From: Alphaproteobacteria bacterium | GTDB taxonomy: Bacteria; Pseudomonadota; Alphaproteobacteria; ATCC43930; CGMCC-115725 | Length of the DNA: 64,000 nucleotides | Reading direction: 5' to 3' | NCBI GenBank assembly: GCA_028871055.1 | Contig: JAGWON010000009.1 | Location: forward strand, 62,001-126,000 | In this document: positions 13,014-42,056 of the stretch, piece by piece | How positions within the stretch are numbered: position 1 is the first letter of the stretch | Layout of the letters: each line of letters starts with the position of its first letter | Translations under genes and position numbers: made by a program | Notes under the pieces: model-generated | Seen by the model: only the letters and a program-made list of their open reading frames with translations | Told to the model about the DNA's origin: nothing | Database searches by the model: none

Positions 13014-13177
13014 GAGGATGGGGCTGCGCGGTGCGTTAGGCGCATGCAACCCCGGGGCCGATATCGACACCTCGGGGACTGTCTCTACCGGAGCCGTGGC
13101 TTCGGCATATGGTTCCCACCTGCGTTAGCGGGCCACGAGGGTTCGTCAAGGCCGACGGCCGAGGCGGCTCCATCCTC
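13014..13177 (+). ncRNA. ssrS: 6S RNA
   Basis: Regulatory RNA that mimics an open promoter and sequesters housekeeping RNA polymerase. The ends pair as a terminal stem: GAGGATGG at the 5' side with CCATCCTC at the 3' side, giving about 164 nt. The interior is GC-rich and can fold into a long imperfect rod with a central bulge, as 6S RNA requires. A -10 box TATAGT at 13004-13009 stands five bases upstream. The position between zapA and fau is the classic 6S locus. The ORF track translates through it, but the fau family N-terminus begins only at 13206. Confidence 0.85.
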
Positions 13178-29685: not shown

Positions 29686-29777
29686 CGCGGCGATTCGGCT
29701 GCGGCAGGACGACGCGCCGCGGCTCCTTTTACCATGTGCGATTGACGCGGCCGGCGAACGCCCGTAGTTTCTTCGGC

Positions 29778-29826
29778 GGGACACGCCCCCCCAACGGGGC
29801 GCGGCTATTCTGGAAGGAATAGATTC
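29778..29826 (+). promoter_or_regulatory. serC leader hairpin (candidate alphaproteobacterial serC RNA motif)
   Basis: A hairpin CGCCCC (29784-29789) / GGGGCG (29796-29801) with loop CCCAAC stands just upstream of the serC start, followed by GGAAGGAAT, which looks like the ribosome site. A cis-regulatory element named the serC motif has been described upstream of serC-serA operons in alphaproteobacteria, and this hairpin sits in the same place. I have not matched it to the published consensus position by position. Confidence 0.5.
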
Positions 29827-35380: not shown

Positions 35381-36043
35381 TCAAACCTTGGCGGTCGCCC
35401 GCGCCGTCCGGAGCCGCGCGACGATATAGCCCTCGATCGTTTCCGACAGCGTGTCGAGGCGGTCGGCGAAGAAATGGTCGGCGCCAGCGATGACCCGATA
35501 ATCGACCTTGAGCGAGCGCTGCTTTTGCAGCCGTTGGGCCAGCTCCTTCACGCCATCGGGCGCGACGATCTGGTCGCTGTCGCCCTGGACGATGAGGCCG
35601 GCCGCAGGCGGCCGGGTCAGAAAGTTGAAGTCGACCAGGTTGACAGGCGGCGCGACCGCGACGAAGGCGTCCGATTCCGGGCGCCGCGCCAGTAGTTGCA
35701 AAGCGATCCACGCGCCAAACGAGAAACCGGCGATCCAGCACTGCTCCGCGTCGGGATTGCTGTTCTGGAGCCAGTCGAGCGCCGCTGCCGCGTCGGCGAG
35801 CTCGCCCTCGCCATTGCCATAGCTGCCCTGGCTCTTGCCGACACCGCGAAAGTTGAACCGCAGCGCGGCGAAGCCCCGGCGCGCGAAGGTGTGGAACAGG
35901 GTATAGACCACCTTGTTGTGCATGGTCCCGCCATGCTGCGGGTGCGGATGAAGGATCAGCGCGATCGGTGCGTTTTCGACCCGGGACGGATGATAGCGCG
36001 CCTCAAGCCGGCCGGCCGGGCCAGTCAGAACCAATTCAGGCAT
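35381..36043 (-). CDS. Small alpha/beta hydrolase
   Basis: COG2945-type alpha/beta hydrolase of 220 residues. The family motif LHPHPQHGGTMHNKVVY is at the N-terminus, the nucleophile elbow is GFSFGAW, an Asp is in VQGDSDQIV, and the His is in GADHFF, completing a catalytic triad. Members are annotated as CoA thioesterases or dienelactone-hydrolase-like esterases; the substrate is unknown. It is transcribed divergently from the cysE-isc operon. Confidence 0.88.
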   Translation of the reverse strand: MPELVLTGPAGRLEARYHPSRVENAPIALILHPHPQHGGTMHNKVVYTLFHTFARRGFAALRFNFRGVGKSQGSYGNGEGELADAAAALDWLQNSNPDAEQCWIAGFSFGAWIALQLLARRPESDAFVAVAPPVNLVDFNFLTRPPAAGLIVQGDSDQIVAPDGVKELAQRLQKQRSLKVDYRVIAGADHFFADRLDTLSETIEGYIVARLRTARATAKV

Positions 36044-36109
36044 CGTGAAGCTTTAACCCAGTGGGAAAGTCGGGATTGATACCACATGTCCAGCGGGACT
36101 CAACGATCT

Positions 36110-36152
36110 AACCGGTCACAAACTTGACCGGTTTACTAGGAATAGATATAGT
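36110..36152 (+). promoter_or_regulatory. Isc operon promoter with IscR-type site and overlapping dyad
   Basis: TTGACC (36124-36129) and TATAGT (36147-36152) are separated by 17 nt, a near-consensus sigma70 promoter. The segment AACTTGACCGGTTTACTAGG with the following AATA (36121-36144) resembles Escherichia coli iscR type 1 sites, in which TTGACC and TTTACT are spaced the same way. A perfect 9-bp dyad AACCGGTCA / TGACCGGTT (36110-36133) overlaps the -35. Bound IscR would block RNA polymerase, giving autorepression of the operon that encodes it. The 5' leader to cysE is about 85 nt. Confidence 0.6.
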
Positions 36153-36242
36153 CTCGACCTCCCGCCCAAACAATGCGCGGAGGCAGATTTCCCACGCTAG
36201 GCAATCGCGGGTGATGGGATCATATAACAAACAGGATCCGAA

Positions 36243-36971
36243 ATGTTGAAGGCTTTGCGCGAACAAATCGACACCATCCTCCGGCTCGATCCGGCGGCCC
36301 GTTCGCGCGTGGAAATCGTGCTCGCCTATCCGGGGTTCCATGCCGTGGTATTCCACCGCCTGGCGAACTGGATGTGGCGGCACAGATTCGAGGTGCTGGC
36401 GCGCTTCACCTCGAACGTCGCCCGGCTGTTGACCGGGATCGAGATCCATCCAGCCGCCAAGATTGGTCGCCGGCTGTTCATCGACCACGGCACGGGCGTG
36501 GTGATCGGCGAGACCACCGAGATCGGCGACGACGTGACGCTTTACCAGGGCGTCACCCTCGGCGGAACGTCACTCAGTCGCGGCAAGCGCCATCCGACAC
36601 TCGAGGACGGCGTCATCGTCGGCGCTGGCGCCAAGGTCTTGGGCGGCTTCACCGTCGGTGCGGGCGCCCGAGTCGGCGCCAATGCTGTCGTGTTGCACGC
36701 GGTGGCGCCGGGCGAGTCGGTCGCTGGCATCCCGGCCAAACCGACCGGGGTCAAGCGCGAGGCACCCAAGGATTTCCTGCCATACGGCACGCCGTGCGAG
36801 GACCTGCCCGATCCGATCGCGCGCTGTGTCGCCAGCCTGATGGACGAGGTCGCGAATCTCAAGCAGCGCATCGCCGAACTCGAGAACAAGACCGAGCTTC
36901 CCGCCCGGGAGATTCCCGCCGAGGCGCAGCCGGCGCGGGCGCGTCGAATCCTGCGGGGTGTGGAGGACTGA
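36243..36971 (+). CDS. cysE: Serine O-acetyltransferase
   Basis: First enzyme of cysteine synthesis, acetylating serine. It has an alpha-helical N-terminal region, then left-handed beta-helix hexapeptide repeats ([27 protein letters not shown]) with the catalytic His in the DHGTG segment. The C-terminal extension (about residues 190-242) contains a coiled helix and a Pro/Arg tail. 242 residues. It precedes iscR by 1 nt, tying cysteine synthesis to Fe-S regulation. Confidence 0.94.
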
Positions 36972-36972
36972 T

Positions 36973-37464
36973 ATGAGGCTTAGCACGAAGGGACGCTATG
37001 CCGTGATGGCGATGGTGGACATCGCCAAGCACGCCGAGGGTACGCCAATCACGCTGGCTGAGATCGCCGAGCGGCAATTGATCTCGCTCTCCTACCTGGA
37101 GCAGCTCTTCGCCAAACTGCGCAGCGCCGGTCTGGTCAAGAGCGTGCGCGGACCCGGTGGCGGCTATCTGCTCGCCCGCGGCGCCGAGGGTACGCGTATC
37201 TCCGACATCATCATCGCAGTCGACGAGCCGATCCGCACCACGCGCTGCACACCCGGTGCGCCGATGGGCTGCAGCGGCAACAAGAGCCGCTGTCTCACCC
37301 ACGATCTGTGGGAGGAACTCGGCAACCAGATCCGGCTCTATCTGAGCTCGGTGACGCTGGCCGATGTGGTCGCCAACCGGCTGCTCGGCCACAGTGGCGT
37401 GCTCCACCGCGAGCGCGCCGATGAGGAACAGCCCGTGTCGGCGCCATCGCTCGCCGCGCAGTGA
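36973..37464 (+). CDS. iscR: Rrf2-family regulator, IscR-like
   Basis: Fe-S-sensing transcription factor. The N-terminal winged helix begins MRLSTKGRYAVMAMVDIA, with the GPGGGYLLARG wing. Three cysteines (CTPGAPMGC ... CLTH) in the RCTPGAPMGCSGNKSRCLTH segment can bind a 2Fe-2S cluster with the nearby His. The ATG at 36973 is chosen; the ORF-track GTG at 36958 lies inside cysE. 163 residues. It overlaps the next gene by 4 nt and probably represses its own operon through the site at 36121-36144. Confidence 0.93.
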   Translation: MRLSTKGRYAVMAMVDIAKHAEGTPITLAEIAERQLISLSYLEQLFAKLRSAGLVKSVRGPGGGYLLARGAEGTRISDIIIAVDEPIRTTRCTPGAPMGCSGNKSRCLTHDLWEELGNQIRLYLSSVTLADVVANRLLGHSGVLHRERADEEQPVSAPSLAAQ

Positions 37465-38597
37465 CGTCGAAAGTTGTTTCCGTGCCCGCCCGTTTGTCCT
37501 ATCTCGACTGGAACGCGACGGCGCCGGTGCGGCCGGAGGCCGCGGCGGCGGTGGCGCGTGCGCTGACGCTGGGCGGCAATCCATCTTCGGTCCATCGCGC
37601 CGGGCGCGCGGCACGCCGTCTGGTGGAGGCCGCGCGTGCCGAGGTGGCGGCGCTGGTCGGCGCCCAGGCCGAAGACGTTGTGTTCACCTCGGGCGGTACG
37701 GAAGCCAATACGCTGGCGCTGCAGGCGTTTCCTGACCGACGCCTCCTGATTTCGGCGATCGAGCATGACTCGGTGATGGCCAACGCACCCCAGGCAGTGC
37801 GCATCCCCGCGACGCGCGACGGGCGCGCCGACTTGGCGGCGCTGGAGCGGCTGCTTGTAGCCGACCGCCGCCCAGCGCTGGTTTCGCTCATGTTCGCCAA
37901 TAACGAGACCGGCGCGGTCCAGCCAGTCGCGGATGGGGCGCGCCTGGCACACGCGCACGGCGCGCTATTTCATTGCGATGCTATCCAGGGTGCAGGCCGC
38001 CAGCCGATCGACATCCGGCGTCTCGGCTGCGACCTGTTGACGCTTTCGGCGCATAAGCTCGGTGGGCCGATGGGCGTCGGCGCGCTGATTGTCGCATCCG
38101 GCCTCGATATCGTGCCGTTGATCCACGGCGGCGGTCAGGAGCGCGGCCGCCGCGCCGGTACCGAGAACTTGCCGGGTATTGCCGGCTTCGGCGCCGCGGC
38201 ACTGGCCGCTGTGGCCGGCCTGGCGGCGTGGCCCAACGTCGCGGCATTGCGTGAGCAGGCCGAATCCCGGCTTCTGGCGATTACACCCGATGCGGTGATC
38301 CACGCCGCGGCGGCGACGCGTTTGCCCAACACGATCTGCATCTCGATGCCGGGGGTTCCGGCCGCGACCCAGGTCATGGCGCTCGACCTCGCCGGCGTGA
38401 TGGTCAGCGCCGGCGCCGCGTGCTCCTCGGGCAAAGTGCGGCGCAGCCACGTGCTCGACGCTATGGGCGTTCGGGAGCGCGAGGCCGAATGCGCCATCCG
38501 CGTCAGTCTGGGTTGGAATACCACGGCAACCGAAATCGACCATCTGGTCGAGGCCTGGGGTGCGCTCTACGCGAGGACGAGGGCGTCCGCCGCATGA
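37461..38597 (+). CDS. Cysteine desulfurase, NifS-like
   Basis: PLP enzyme that transfers sulfur from cysteine. The PLP lysine is in LSAHKLGGPMGVGAL, and the catalytic Cys is in GAACSSGKVRRSHVL, a NifS-like active-site loop distinct from the IscS loop of the next gene. 378 residues. It starts at a GTG at 37461 overlapping the iscR stop. A pair of desulfurases after iscR occurs in other Rhodospirillales; how they divide the work is unknown. Confidence 0.93.
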   Translation: MTSKVVSVPARLSYLDWNATAPVRPEAAAAVARALTLGGNPSSVHRAGRAARRLVEAARAEVAALVGAQAEDVVFTSGGTEANTLALQAFPDRRLLISAIEHDSVMANAPQAVRIPATRDGRADLAALERLLVADRRPALVSLMFANNETGAVQPVADGARLAHAHGALFHCDAIQGAGRQPIDIRRLGCDLLTLSAHKLGGPMGVGALIVASGLDIVPLIHGGGQERGRRAGTENLPGIAGFGAAALAAVAGLAAWPNVAALREQAESRLLAITPDAVIHAAAATRLPNTICISMPGVPAATQVMALDLAGVMVSAGAACSSGKVRRSHVLDAMGVREREAECAIRVSLGWNTTATEIDHLVEAWGALYARTRASAA

Positions 38598-39805
38598 CTG
38601 CCGCCATCGTCCGCCGACCCAACGCGGCGCCAGTCTATCTCGACAATCAGGCGACCACGCCGTGCGATCCGCGCGTGGTCGAGGCGATGCTGCCGTGGTT
38701 CACCGAAAAGTTCGGCAATCCCAATTCGCTGACCCACGCCTATGGCCGCGAGGCCGAGCAGGCGGTGGAGCAGGCGCGCGCCGAGCTCGCCGATCTGATC
38801 GGCGCCGATCCGCGTGAGATCGTGTTCACCTCGGGCGCGACCGAAGCCAACAACATGGCGGTCAAAGGCGCGGCGCGCTTCCACCGCCAGTTCGGCAAGG
38901 ATGGCGTGGTCACGCTGGCGACCGAGCATAAGTGCGTGCTCGAAAGCACCATGGCGCTGGCGCGCGACGCGTTCCGCGTTTCCATCCTCTCCGTCGGGCA
39001 CGACGGGCTCGCCGATCTCGACGCGCTGGCGCGCGCCATCGACGACCGAACCGCGATTGTCTCGGTGATGATCGCGCACAACGAGATCGGCGTGCTGCAG
39101 CCGATCAAGGAGATCGCCGCGCTCGCGCATGCGAAGGGCGCGCTGTTCCACACCGACGCCGCCCAGGCCGTCGGCAAGATCGCGTTCGACGTCGCCGAGC
39201 TCGGCGTCGATCTGATGTCAATCTCCGGCCACAAGGTCTATGGACCCAAGGGCATCGGCGCGCTTTATCTGCGCCGCCGGCCGCGGGCGCGGATCGAGCC
39301 GCTGTTCGACGGCGGCGCGCAAGAGCGCGGCATGCGTTCGGGCACGCTGCCGGTGCCGCTGATCGTCGGATTGGGCCGAGCCGCCGTCCTGGCCAAGGCC
39401 GAAATGGCGGGCGAGGCGCAACGGCTGCTGGCGCTCCGAGCGCGTTTCCTGTCTGGTCTGCGCGCGAAGCTTCCGGACGCGATCCTGAACGGCCATGCCG
39501 AGCAACGGCTGCCGGGCAATCTCAACCTGAGCTTCCCCGGCCTCAAGGCCATCGACTTGATCGGCGCCTGCCCGGGCCTGGCACTATCGACCGGCTCGGC
39601 CTGCACCGCCGCCGAGGTCGAGCCGTCCTATGTGCTGCGCGCGCTCGGGCTGGGCGATGATCTTGCCGGCGCCTCTCTGCGCATCGGCCTCGGCCGCTTC
39701 ACCACCGCGACCGAGGTCGATTTCGCCGTCGACGCGCTGGTCGTCGCGGTCCGGCGGTTGCGTGCAGGCGAGCGGATGACAAGCGAAGCCTCCGGCATTA
39801 CATAA
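38594..39805 (+). CDS. iscS: Cysteine desulfurase IscS
   Basis: Group I PLP desulfurase, the main sulfur donor for Fe-S assembly and for MnmA. YLDNQATTPCDPRVVEAM opens the fold; the PLP lysine is in SISGHKVYGPKGIGAL, and the mobile Cys loop is STGSACTAAEVEPSYVL, as in IscS. 403 residues. The ATG at 38594 overlaps the stop of the NifS-like gene. iscA follows after 15 bp. Confidence 0.95.
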   Translation: MTAAIVRRPNAAPVYLDNQATTPCDPRVVEAMLPWFTEKFGNPNSLTHAYGREAEQAVEQARAELADLIGADPREIVFTSGATEANNMAVKGAARFHRQFGKDGVVTLATEHKCVLESTMALARDAFRVSILSVGHDGLADLDALARAIDDRTAIVSVMIAHNEIGVLQPIKEIAALAHAKGALFHTDAAQAVGKIAFDVAELGVDLMSISGHKVYGPKGIGALYLRRRPRARIEPLFDGGAQERGMRSGTLPVPLIVGLGRAAVLAKAEMAGEAQRLLALRARFLSGLRAKLPDAILNGHAEQRLPGNLNLSFPGLKAIDLIGACPGLALSTGSACTAAEVEPSYVLRALGLGDDLAGASLRIGLGRFTTATEVDFAVDALVVAVRRLRAGERMTSEASGIT

Positions 39806-39820
39806 GGGTTGGAGATTCCC

Positions 39821-40159
39821 ATGGCCCTGAAACAGGCGATGACGGTGACCGACGCGGCGGCCAAGCGCATCCAGGCGCTCCTGGCCCAGCGCGGCAAGCC
39901 GTCGGCCGGCGTCCGCGTCGGCGTGCGCGCCCGCGGCTGCTCGGGCCTGACCTATACGCTCGAATATGCCGATGAGAAGGGCAAGCTCGACGAGGTCGTC
40001 CAGGAAAAGGGCGTCACCATTTTGATCGATCCCAAGGCGACGATGTTCATCATCGGTACCGAGATGGATTACGTCGAGGACAAGCTGCAATCGGGCTTCA
40101 CCTTCCGCAATCCGAACGAAAAAGGCCGGTGCGGCTGCGGCGAATCGTTCCACGTCTGA
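39821..40159 (+). CDS. iscA: Iron-sulfur cluster assembly protein IscA
   Basis: A-type carrier that delivers Fe-S clusters. It has the three conserved cysteines: one in RARGCSGLTYT and two in the C-terminal GRCGCGESF. 112 residues from the ATG at 39821, with a GGAG ribosome site. In classical isc operons iscU lies between iscS and iscA; here iscA follows iscS directly and no iscU is present. Confidence 0.95.
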   Translation: MALKQAMTVTDAAAKRIQALLAQRGKPSAGVRVGVRARGCSGLTYTLEYADEKGKLDEVVQEKGVTILIDPKATMFIIGTEMDYVEDKLQSGFTFRNPNEKGRCGCGESFHV

Positions 40160-40175: not shown

Positions 40176-40622
40176 ATGAAGCTGTTCCAGATCGAGGAGC
40201 CCGAAGGCGCGCCGCTTTCGGCCGAGGGGTCAGGCGCCGCGGTGGGCATCGATTTGGCGGCGGACTCGGCGGCCGTCGCCATCGCGCTCGGCGGCAATGC
40301 CGAGATCCTGACCGGCGCCAATGGCGAGCAGCGGCTGGACGTCACGGGGCAGGCACCCGCCGAGGTCCTGCTGGCGCTCCGCGCACGTGCCGAGAAGCAG
40401 CTCGCTCGGCCGGTGACCCATGCGGTGATCGCGATTGAGGATACAGTCGGCGCCGCCGCGCTCGCAGCGGCCGCCCAATCGGCCGGTTTTTCCATACTGC
40501 GCGTGGTGACGCGGCGTGAAGCTGCGGCGAAGGATGCCGGCAAGGACGCGGTCGCGCTGGGAGCGGCACGGCTGGCCGAGGATTTGGCGCCGCGAGCTGA
40601 TATAACGTCGCCCCAAGTTTGA
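40176..40622 (+). CDS. Shortened HscA/Hsp70-like protein
   Basis: A 148-residue protein at the place where hscA usually lies (between iscA and fdx). Its N-terminus [13 protein letters not shown] resembles the LLQI-EPG opening of Hsc[17 protein letters not shown] aligns with the Hsp70 phosphate-1 loop (usually GIDLGTTNSLVA), but the Gly-Thr-Thr is lost. [32 protein letters not shown] resembles the VITVPAYF...LAGL-VLRL segment, ending near GAARLAEDL. Most of the nucleotide-binding domain and the whole substrate-binding domain are missing. It is open from start to stop, so it is a reduced but maintained gene, or a recent decay product. ATPase activity is unlikely. Homology is inferred from position and these alignments only. 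Confidence 0.65.
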
Positions 40623-40638
40623 TTGCGGATCGGATCGC

Positions 40639-40971
40639 ATGCCCAAGATGACTTTCATCGAACGCGACGGCACCCGGAAGACCGTGGACGCGCCGGTCGG
40701 CCTGTCCGTGCTCGAGATCGCGCACCAGAACGACGTCGACATCGAGGGCGCGTGCGAAGGCTCGCTGGCCTGCTCCACGTGTCACATCGTCATCGAGCCG
40801 GAATGGTACGAGCTGCTGAAGGATGCGACCGAGGACGAAGAGGACATGCTCGACCTTGCCTTTGGCCTGACCAAGACGTCGCGGCTGGGCTGCCAGATCG
40901 TAATGACCGAAGAGCTCGACGGCCTCACCGTTCGCTTGCCGCAGACGACGCGCAACATGATGAACACCTGA
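40639..40971 (+). CDS. fdx: Isc-type 2Fe-2S ferredoxin
   Basis: Adrenodoxin-type ferredoxin that supplies electrons for cluster assembly. Four cluster cysteines are in the [13 protein letters not shown] segment and the LGCQIVM segment. The acidic stretch [16 protein letters not shown] is the partner-binding region. 110 residues, the usual size. Its stop overlaps the start of mnmA (TGATG). Confidence 0.95.
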
Positions 40972-42056
40972 TGGACCCGGCGCTGACTCCTGGCGCGCGC
41001 GTCGTCGTCGCCATGTCGGGCGGCGTCGACAGCTCGACCGTGGCGGCGCTCCTGGCCGAGCGCGGCTGCGATGTCGTCGGCGTTACGCTGCAGCTCTACG
41101 ATCACGGCGGTGCGACCGGGCGCAAGGGCGCATGCTGTGCCGGCCAGGACATCCGCGACGCCGCGCGCGTCGCCGAGACGCTCGACATTCCCCATTACGT
41201 GCTCGACTACGAGAAGCGATTCCGTACCGAGGTGATCGACGATTTCGCCGATTCCTACCTCGCCGGCGAGACGCCGGTGCCATGTGTCCGCTGCAATGAG
41301 ATCGTGAAGTTCCGCGATCTGCTCGCCGTGGCACGCGATCTCGGCGCTCAGGCGCTTGCCACCGGCCACTATGCGCGGCGCGCCGACGGCGTCGACGGGC
41401 CGGAGCTGCATCGCGCCGCGGATGCCGGCCGCGACCAAAGCTATTTCCTCTACCGCACGACGCGCGCGCAGCTCGCGTTCCTGCGCTTTCCCTTGGGCGA
41501 CTTCACCAAGGACGAAACCCGTGCGCTGGCATCGCGTTTTGCGCTGCCCGTGGCGCAGAAGCCGGACAGCCAGGACATCTGCTTCGTCCCAGCAGGCCGC
41601 TATGACGACATGATCGAAAAACTGCGCCCCGGTGCCACCGAGCCGGGCGAGATCGTCGACGAGGTGGGCCGCGTGCTCGGCCATCACGACGGCGTCATCC
41701 ATTTCACCGTCGGCCAGCGCAAGGGCCTCGGCGTGGCCGGCGGCCAGCCGCTCTACGTGCTACGGCTCGAGCCGGCAAGCCGGCGCGTCGTCGTCGGGCC
41801 GCGCGCCAGTCTCGGCGCCAGGCACGTGCCCTTCGATCACATCAACTGGCTTGGCCCGCGTCCGGGCAAGTCGGGAATTCGCGTTGCGGTCAAGCTGCGC
41901 TCAGCGCAGCCGCCGTTGCCCGCGACCCTTCTCCTCGAGACCGAGCGCGGCATGGCGGTGCTCGACGAGCCCGCTTTCGGCGTGGCACCGGGCCAGGCTT
42001 GCGTCGCCTATGACGGCGACCGCCTGCTGGGCGGCGGCTGGATCGCGCGCGCCTGA
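40971..42056 (+). CDS. mnmA: tRNA-specific 2-thiouridylase MnmA
   Basis: Thiolates U34 of Glu, Gln and Lys tRNAs using persulfide sulfur that originates from IscS. P-loop [15 protein letters not shown], the first active Cys in [17 protein letters not shown], and the second Cys in DSQDICFVP are intact. 361 residues from the ATG at 40971. Its place at the end of the isc operon links sulfur mobilisation with tRNA thiolation. Confidence 0.95.

Follow-up and report, generated by a model that had tools for sequence, protein, structure and literature searches.

The best-described counterparts of the promoter analysed here are the iscR (isc) promoters of Escherichia coli and Pseudomonas aeruginosa. 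In E. coli, a type 1-like IscR motif lies over the −35 element TTGACC and the spacer of 17 bp, and a second site lies upstream; the two sites, A and B, are adjacent and 25 bp apart start to start. In P. aeruginosa, isc sites A and B have been footprinted and repress (site B, ATAGTTGACCTAATTACTCGGATAA), with the primary type 1 site over the promoter and the other, weaker site upstream, also 25 bp apart, and with holo-IscR as the repressing form (PMC6599224). Autorepression by IscR has also been demonstrated in other Alphaproteobacteria (PMC4618611, PMC11475020). Rhodobacter sphaeroides IscR represses its own promoter and is associated with the Iron-Rhodo-box, a 19-bp palindrome (PMC4618611), and Caulobacter crescentus IscR controls its own isc–suf operon in response to iron; the part of the Caulobacter IscR regulon account drawn on here contains no paired-site rule (PMC11475020).

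We analysed a stretch of 64,000 nucleotides (the window) from a 3.07-Mb alphaproteobacterial assembly of 33 contigs; among its relatives in the public collection, those with names are mainly Rhodospirillales. Like the E. coli promoter, the window has a type 1-like motif over the −35 element and spacer, with TTGACC in matching register and 17 bp between the hexamers, and as in both E. coli and P. aeruginosa another site lies upstream of it at a matching helical phase. Unlike in those species, the two sites are 67 bp rather than 25 bp apart and the controlled unit carries cysE before iscR, whereas the E. coli unit begins with iscR and the P. aeruginosa promoter lies directly before that gene. 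The alphaproteobacterial comparisons share autoregulation as proposed here, but the R. sphaeroides protein is a single-cysteine IscR with a different palindrome, and C. crescentus has an isc–suf operon and a different, looser published motif. We consider it highly probable that the region is an autoregulated cysE–iscR promoter under paired IscR type 1-like operators, with holo-IscR repressing and a distal dimer reinforcing repression. The regulatory features are as follows.

36124–36129, plus strand: −35 element TTGACC, a sigma-70-like match in the sequence
36147–36152, plus strand: −10 element TATAGT, a sigma-70-like match in the sequence
36120–36151, plus strand: proximal IscR type 1-like operator, AAACTTGACCGGTTTACTAGGAATAGATATAG, overlapping the promoter, matrix score 30.6 bits
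36053–36079, no strand assigned: distal IscR type 1-like operator, TTAACCCAGTGGGAAAGTCGGGATTGA, with half sites CCCAGT (36057–36062) and AGTCGG (36068–36073)
36110–36133, no strand assigned: perfect 9-bp dyad, AACCGGTCA-N6-TGACCGGTT, overlapping the −35 element, probably incidental

The genes on either side of this region are listed below; annotation of the translations confirms the earlier call that cysE and iscR are the first genes of the operon.

35381–36043, minus strand: alpha/beta hydrolase, divergent, adjoining the operon in nearly all relatives
36243–36971, plus strand: cysE, serine O-acetyltransferase (TIGR01172, above cut-off)
36973–37464, plus strand: iscR (TIGR02010, 184.2 bits; ligand pattern and DNA-contact residues present)
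37461–38597, plus strand: NifS/IscS-like cysteine desulfurase (profile match)
38594–39805, plus strand: IscS-like cysteine desulfurase (profile match)
39809–40159, plus strand: IscA/SufA-type carrier (profile match)
40176–40622, plus strand: HscA-related fragment protein of 148 amino acids, kept across the family
40639–40971, plus strand: ISC-type [2Fe-2S] ferredoxin, fdx (profile match)
40968–42056, plus strand: mnmA, tRNA 2-thiouridine synthase, its start overlapping the fdx stop

From cysE to mnmA, in the order given, the operon genes overlap or are separated by intergenic gaps of at most 16 bases, and argG follows about 50 bases 3′ of mnmA. The cysE gene encodes the only serine acetyltransferase of the genome. 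IscU, HscB and full-length HscA are absent from the operon, both here and in the window's family, HscA being represented by a fragment only. HscB is also missing from the rest of the genome; contig C19 carries the single full-length Hsp70-family match, and the only NifU_N (IscU-like) match is SufU, within a complete SUF cluster on contig C23 (Rrf2 SUF regulator, sufB, sufC, sufD, sufS and sufU) that is separate from the IscR operon. The unit, described in the initial annotation as a combined cysteine and Fe–S operon, does not amount to a full Fe–S assembly operon; because it is without IscU, HscB and complete HscA and SUF lies elsewhere, the prediction is better worded as control by Fe–S status of cysteine synthesis, sulfur mobilisation and tRNA thiolation. 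Since the IscU-like protein occurs only in the SUF cluster, the IscR unit would supply the cysteine precursor, sulfur, carrier, ferredoxin and tRNA thiolation, and SUF would provide the scaffold. The predicted dependence of cysteine and sulfur supply on Fe–S status is well supported. Across loci the downstream machinery varies, comprising full ISC, SUF or neither within reach. The relationship of the 40176–40622 protein to HscA covers part of the nucleotide-binding domain, and the protein retains 42–56% identity in the family despite the loss of HscB and IscU.

The annotated TTGACC-17-TATAGT promoter is present at 36124–36152, the sole sigma-70-like match between 35300 and 43600 (1 observed vs 0.7 expected from shuffles). 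The sequence over it had been likened to E. coli iscR type 1 sites. Compared with the E. coli type 1 consensus (ATASYYGACTRWWWYAGTCRRSTAT), the window site agrees at 16 of 25 positions, a value commonly reached by shuffled promoters, and by itself this match is insufficient as proof; the sites of many relatives agree at 20–24 of 25. Because the E. coli consensus alone gives a chance-level score, the resemblance to IscR sites rests on comparison across relatives. From about 145 loci, taken from the public collection as well as from whole genomes, we built a proximal matrix of 32 columns on 122 relatives' sites, with the window's genus left out (consensus ATACTTGACCANNTTAGTCGGGNAANCCTATAT). This matrix places 36120 first in the 64 kb at 30.6 bits, with a runner-up at 2.6, and the site keeps rank 1 of 127,938 positions when the −35 and −10 hexamer columns are removed. 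Applied to E. coli PiscR, the same matrix scores site B best in the promoter (25.5 bits). A sequence model that includes the window site (R1) has a single match in the 3.07-Mb genome, the proximal site, and in seven of eight relatives tested it likewise has a single match, at the cysE/iscR operon promoter (six at E ≤ 0.002, one at E 0.08); the eighth, G070, has no match at E ≤ 0.5. Conservation of the motif upstream of cysE in relatives extends across Rhodospirillales and other Alphaproteobacteria, and the operator lies upstream of operons of both kinds, cysE-first (77 of 105 loci) and iscR-first (28). A signal peculiar to one species is ruled out, the loci being drawn from more than 100 contigs. 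The promoter-site model found no wider IscR regulon in the genome at E ≤ 10, and the shorter operator motif is not informative enough to scan a genome with.

Only one IscR-type site had been annotated; it corresponds to the proximal operator, and a second type 1-like site, at 36053–36079, had been overlooked. A distal matrix trained with the genus left out ranks the distal and proximal sites above every other position in the 64-kb window. The two sites have one motif in common, and in the genus conservation covers both blocks but not the DNA separating them. Upstream of 105 thinned loci, the pattern YYGAST-N5-ASTCRR was observed 40 times at 10 or more of 12 positions (15.6 expected) and 17 times at 11 or more (1.2 expected), with matches clustering at offsets −52/−53, −62 to −65 and −73/−74. 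A leave-one-out matrix with a threshold of at least 6 bits detects a distal site in 60 of the 105 alphaproteobacterial loci (57%, vs 3.9% of shuffles) and detects none in the other 45 (43%). Real control windows nearby reach the threshold in 9 of 835 cases (1%) and have no phase.

Start-to-start spacing between distal and proximal sites clusters at whole helical turns, at about 56, 67, 77 and 98 bp. Each of the 60 distal sites lies no more than 2.5 bp from an integer multiple of 10.5 bp, giving a phase mean resultant R of 0.88 at this period (n = 60), and R is 0.82 without the main, five-turn class (n = 21). The six spacing classes require at least 15 changes on a quick tree of IscR and NifS that has strong support on 16 of 57 inner branches, the loci being mutually related. 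As spacing varies in whole turns, it is probable that IscR acts in pairs, on a single face of the DNA. We also favour, with moderate confidence, a broader rule in which the iscR autoregulatory promoters of Alphaproteobacteria and of the gammaproteobacteria E. coli and P. aeruginosa have two IscR operators whose spacing varies by whole turns only (25, 56, 67, 77 and 98 bp). Such a rule would imply contact between IscR dimers via a loop, one DNA face or polymerase, and in the window's lineage it would govern the only serine acetyltransferase together with an operon that mobilises sulfur without a scaffold. A search of open-access papers yielded nothing directly on IscR helical phasing or on alphaproteobacterial cysE–iscR operons.

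One alternative is that the distal site is an activating IscR element. When +1 is set 7 bases after the −10 element, the distal centres come to lie near −62, −73, −83, −94 and −104, on the helical face used by class I activators such as CRP. IscR at the distal site could accordingly touch RNA polymerase alpha while the proximal site represses, a form of dual control. We think this rather unlikely, given that the distal and proximal sites share their motif and that site A of P. aeruginosa, which has been footprinted, contributes to repression and not to activation (PMC6599224). A second alternative assigns the distal site to the divergent alpha/beta hydrolase instead of cysE–iscR, since the site is 10 bp from the hydrolase start and the hydrolase/operon gene pair is conserved. 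Across loci, however, the distance to the hydrolase start ranges without pattern from 8 to 100 bp (sd 19), whereas the separation from the cysE/iscR promoter changes in steps of helical turns (distal-to-proximal sd 7). The distal site therefore appears to belong to the cysE/iscR promoter, and an operator of the hydrolase is an improbable explanation.

The protein encoded by the second gene of the operon resembles characterized IscR. Its cluster ligands, three Cys and one His, have the pattern C-x7-C-x6-C-x2-H (CTPGAPMGCSGNKSRCLTH in translation), the ligand region aligns with the E. coli IscR structure 4hf1, and its closest solved structures are those of E. coli IscR. The helix-turn-helix contacts S40, Y41, E43, Q44 and R59, named for E. 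coli and Caulobacter IscR (PMC11475020), are kept within SYLEQ and SVRGPGGGY (VRGPGG). The score of 184.2 bits against the NCBIfam equivalog TIGR02010 is below the cut-off of 207.55, and this is still the best family match. With five Rrf2-like matches in the genome and a perfect dyad overlapping the −35 element, the true ligand might instead be a factor that binds the dyad or another Rrf2 protein, such as the regulator linked to SUF on contig C23. We judge this very unlikely: the region upstream of the SUF regulator is without such a promoter site (best score −14), the genome contains no match besides the proximal site, which accompanies iscR in relatives, and the dyad is unconserved.

The 9-bp dyad annotated on the promoter is indeed present and perfect. 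It has no other genomic copy within 2 mismatches, and the window contains 22 perfect 9-bp dyads with loops of 0–12. In three congeners the left arm reads AACCGGCCA, AAATGGCCG and AAACGGCCC, leaving the dyad perfect in the window's species only. Because it is unconserved in the genus and one of 22 in the window, the dyad is probably incidental, and as a candidate second operator it was rejected on the differing congener arms and on how common such dyads are by chance. That the conserved block is merely a strong sigma-70 promoter with no operator, as the near-consensus hexamers within it could suggest, is scarcely credible, because 17.4 of 32.3 bits of motif information lie outside the hexamers, the site ranks first in the window on those columns by themselves, and the non-promoter motif recurs upstream in phase.

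Returning to repression from paired operators, we infer IscR binding, a requirement for the holo form, repression and cooperativity at the two sites. Holo-IscR ([2Fe-2S]) would bind the proximal site at 36120–36144, which spans the −35 element and the greater part of the spacer, and would block RNA polymerase. A second IscR dimer would occupy the distal site at 36053–36079, on a fixed helix face relative to the first, and would strengthen repression through cooperative or looped contact. When Fe–S clusters are scarce or oxidised, IscR would release the DNA, and CysE, the cysteine desulfurases, the A-type carrier, ferredoxin and MnmA would rise together. Through such a circuit, the IscR feedback switch of E. 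coli would also act on operons whose first gene encodes the enzyme committing serine to cysteine. The supply of sulfur donor would then follow the cell's Fe–S demand, and the predicted IscR control would outlive loss of the ISC scaffold. The spacing rule also bears on whether paired IscR sites act independently, as stated for E. coli, or cooperatively, a possibility raised for P. aeruginosa (PMC6599224).

Further observations concern the surroundings of the operon. The alpha/beta hydrolase (35381–36043) is oriented divergently to the operon in almost every alphaproteobacterial locus examined. Among loci without cysE, L018, L037 and those of Reyranella type (L133, L138–L141, L143, L147–L149 and L153) have a short open reading frame with a CysE-like start before iscR (MIFKN..., MVFKTFRR...), apparently in frame with iscR in the Reyranella-type loci; this frame is possibly a cysE remnant. 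Terminator-like sites are no more numerous in the region than in shuffled sequence. Upstream of the cysE ATG, at 36220–36242 in the window and also in relatives, a weakly conserved ATARCAYAGTG-like stretch replaces a clear Shine–Dalgarno sequence. Elsewhere in the window, 13018–13174 and 29774–29826 match 6S RNA and the serC leader RNA, respectively, above the Rfam gathering score.
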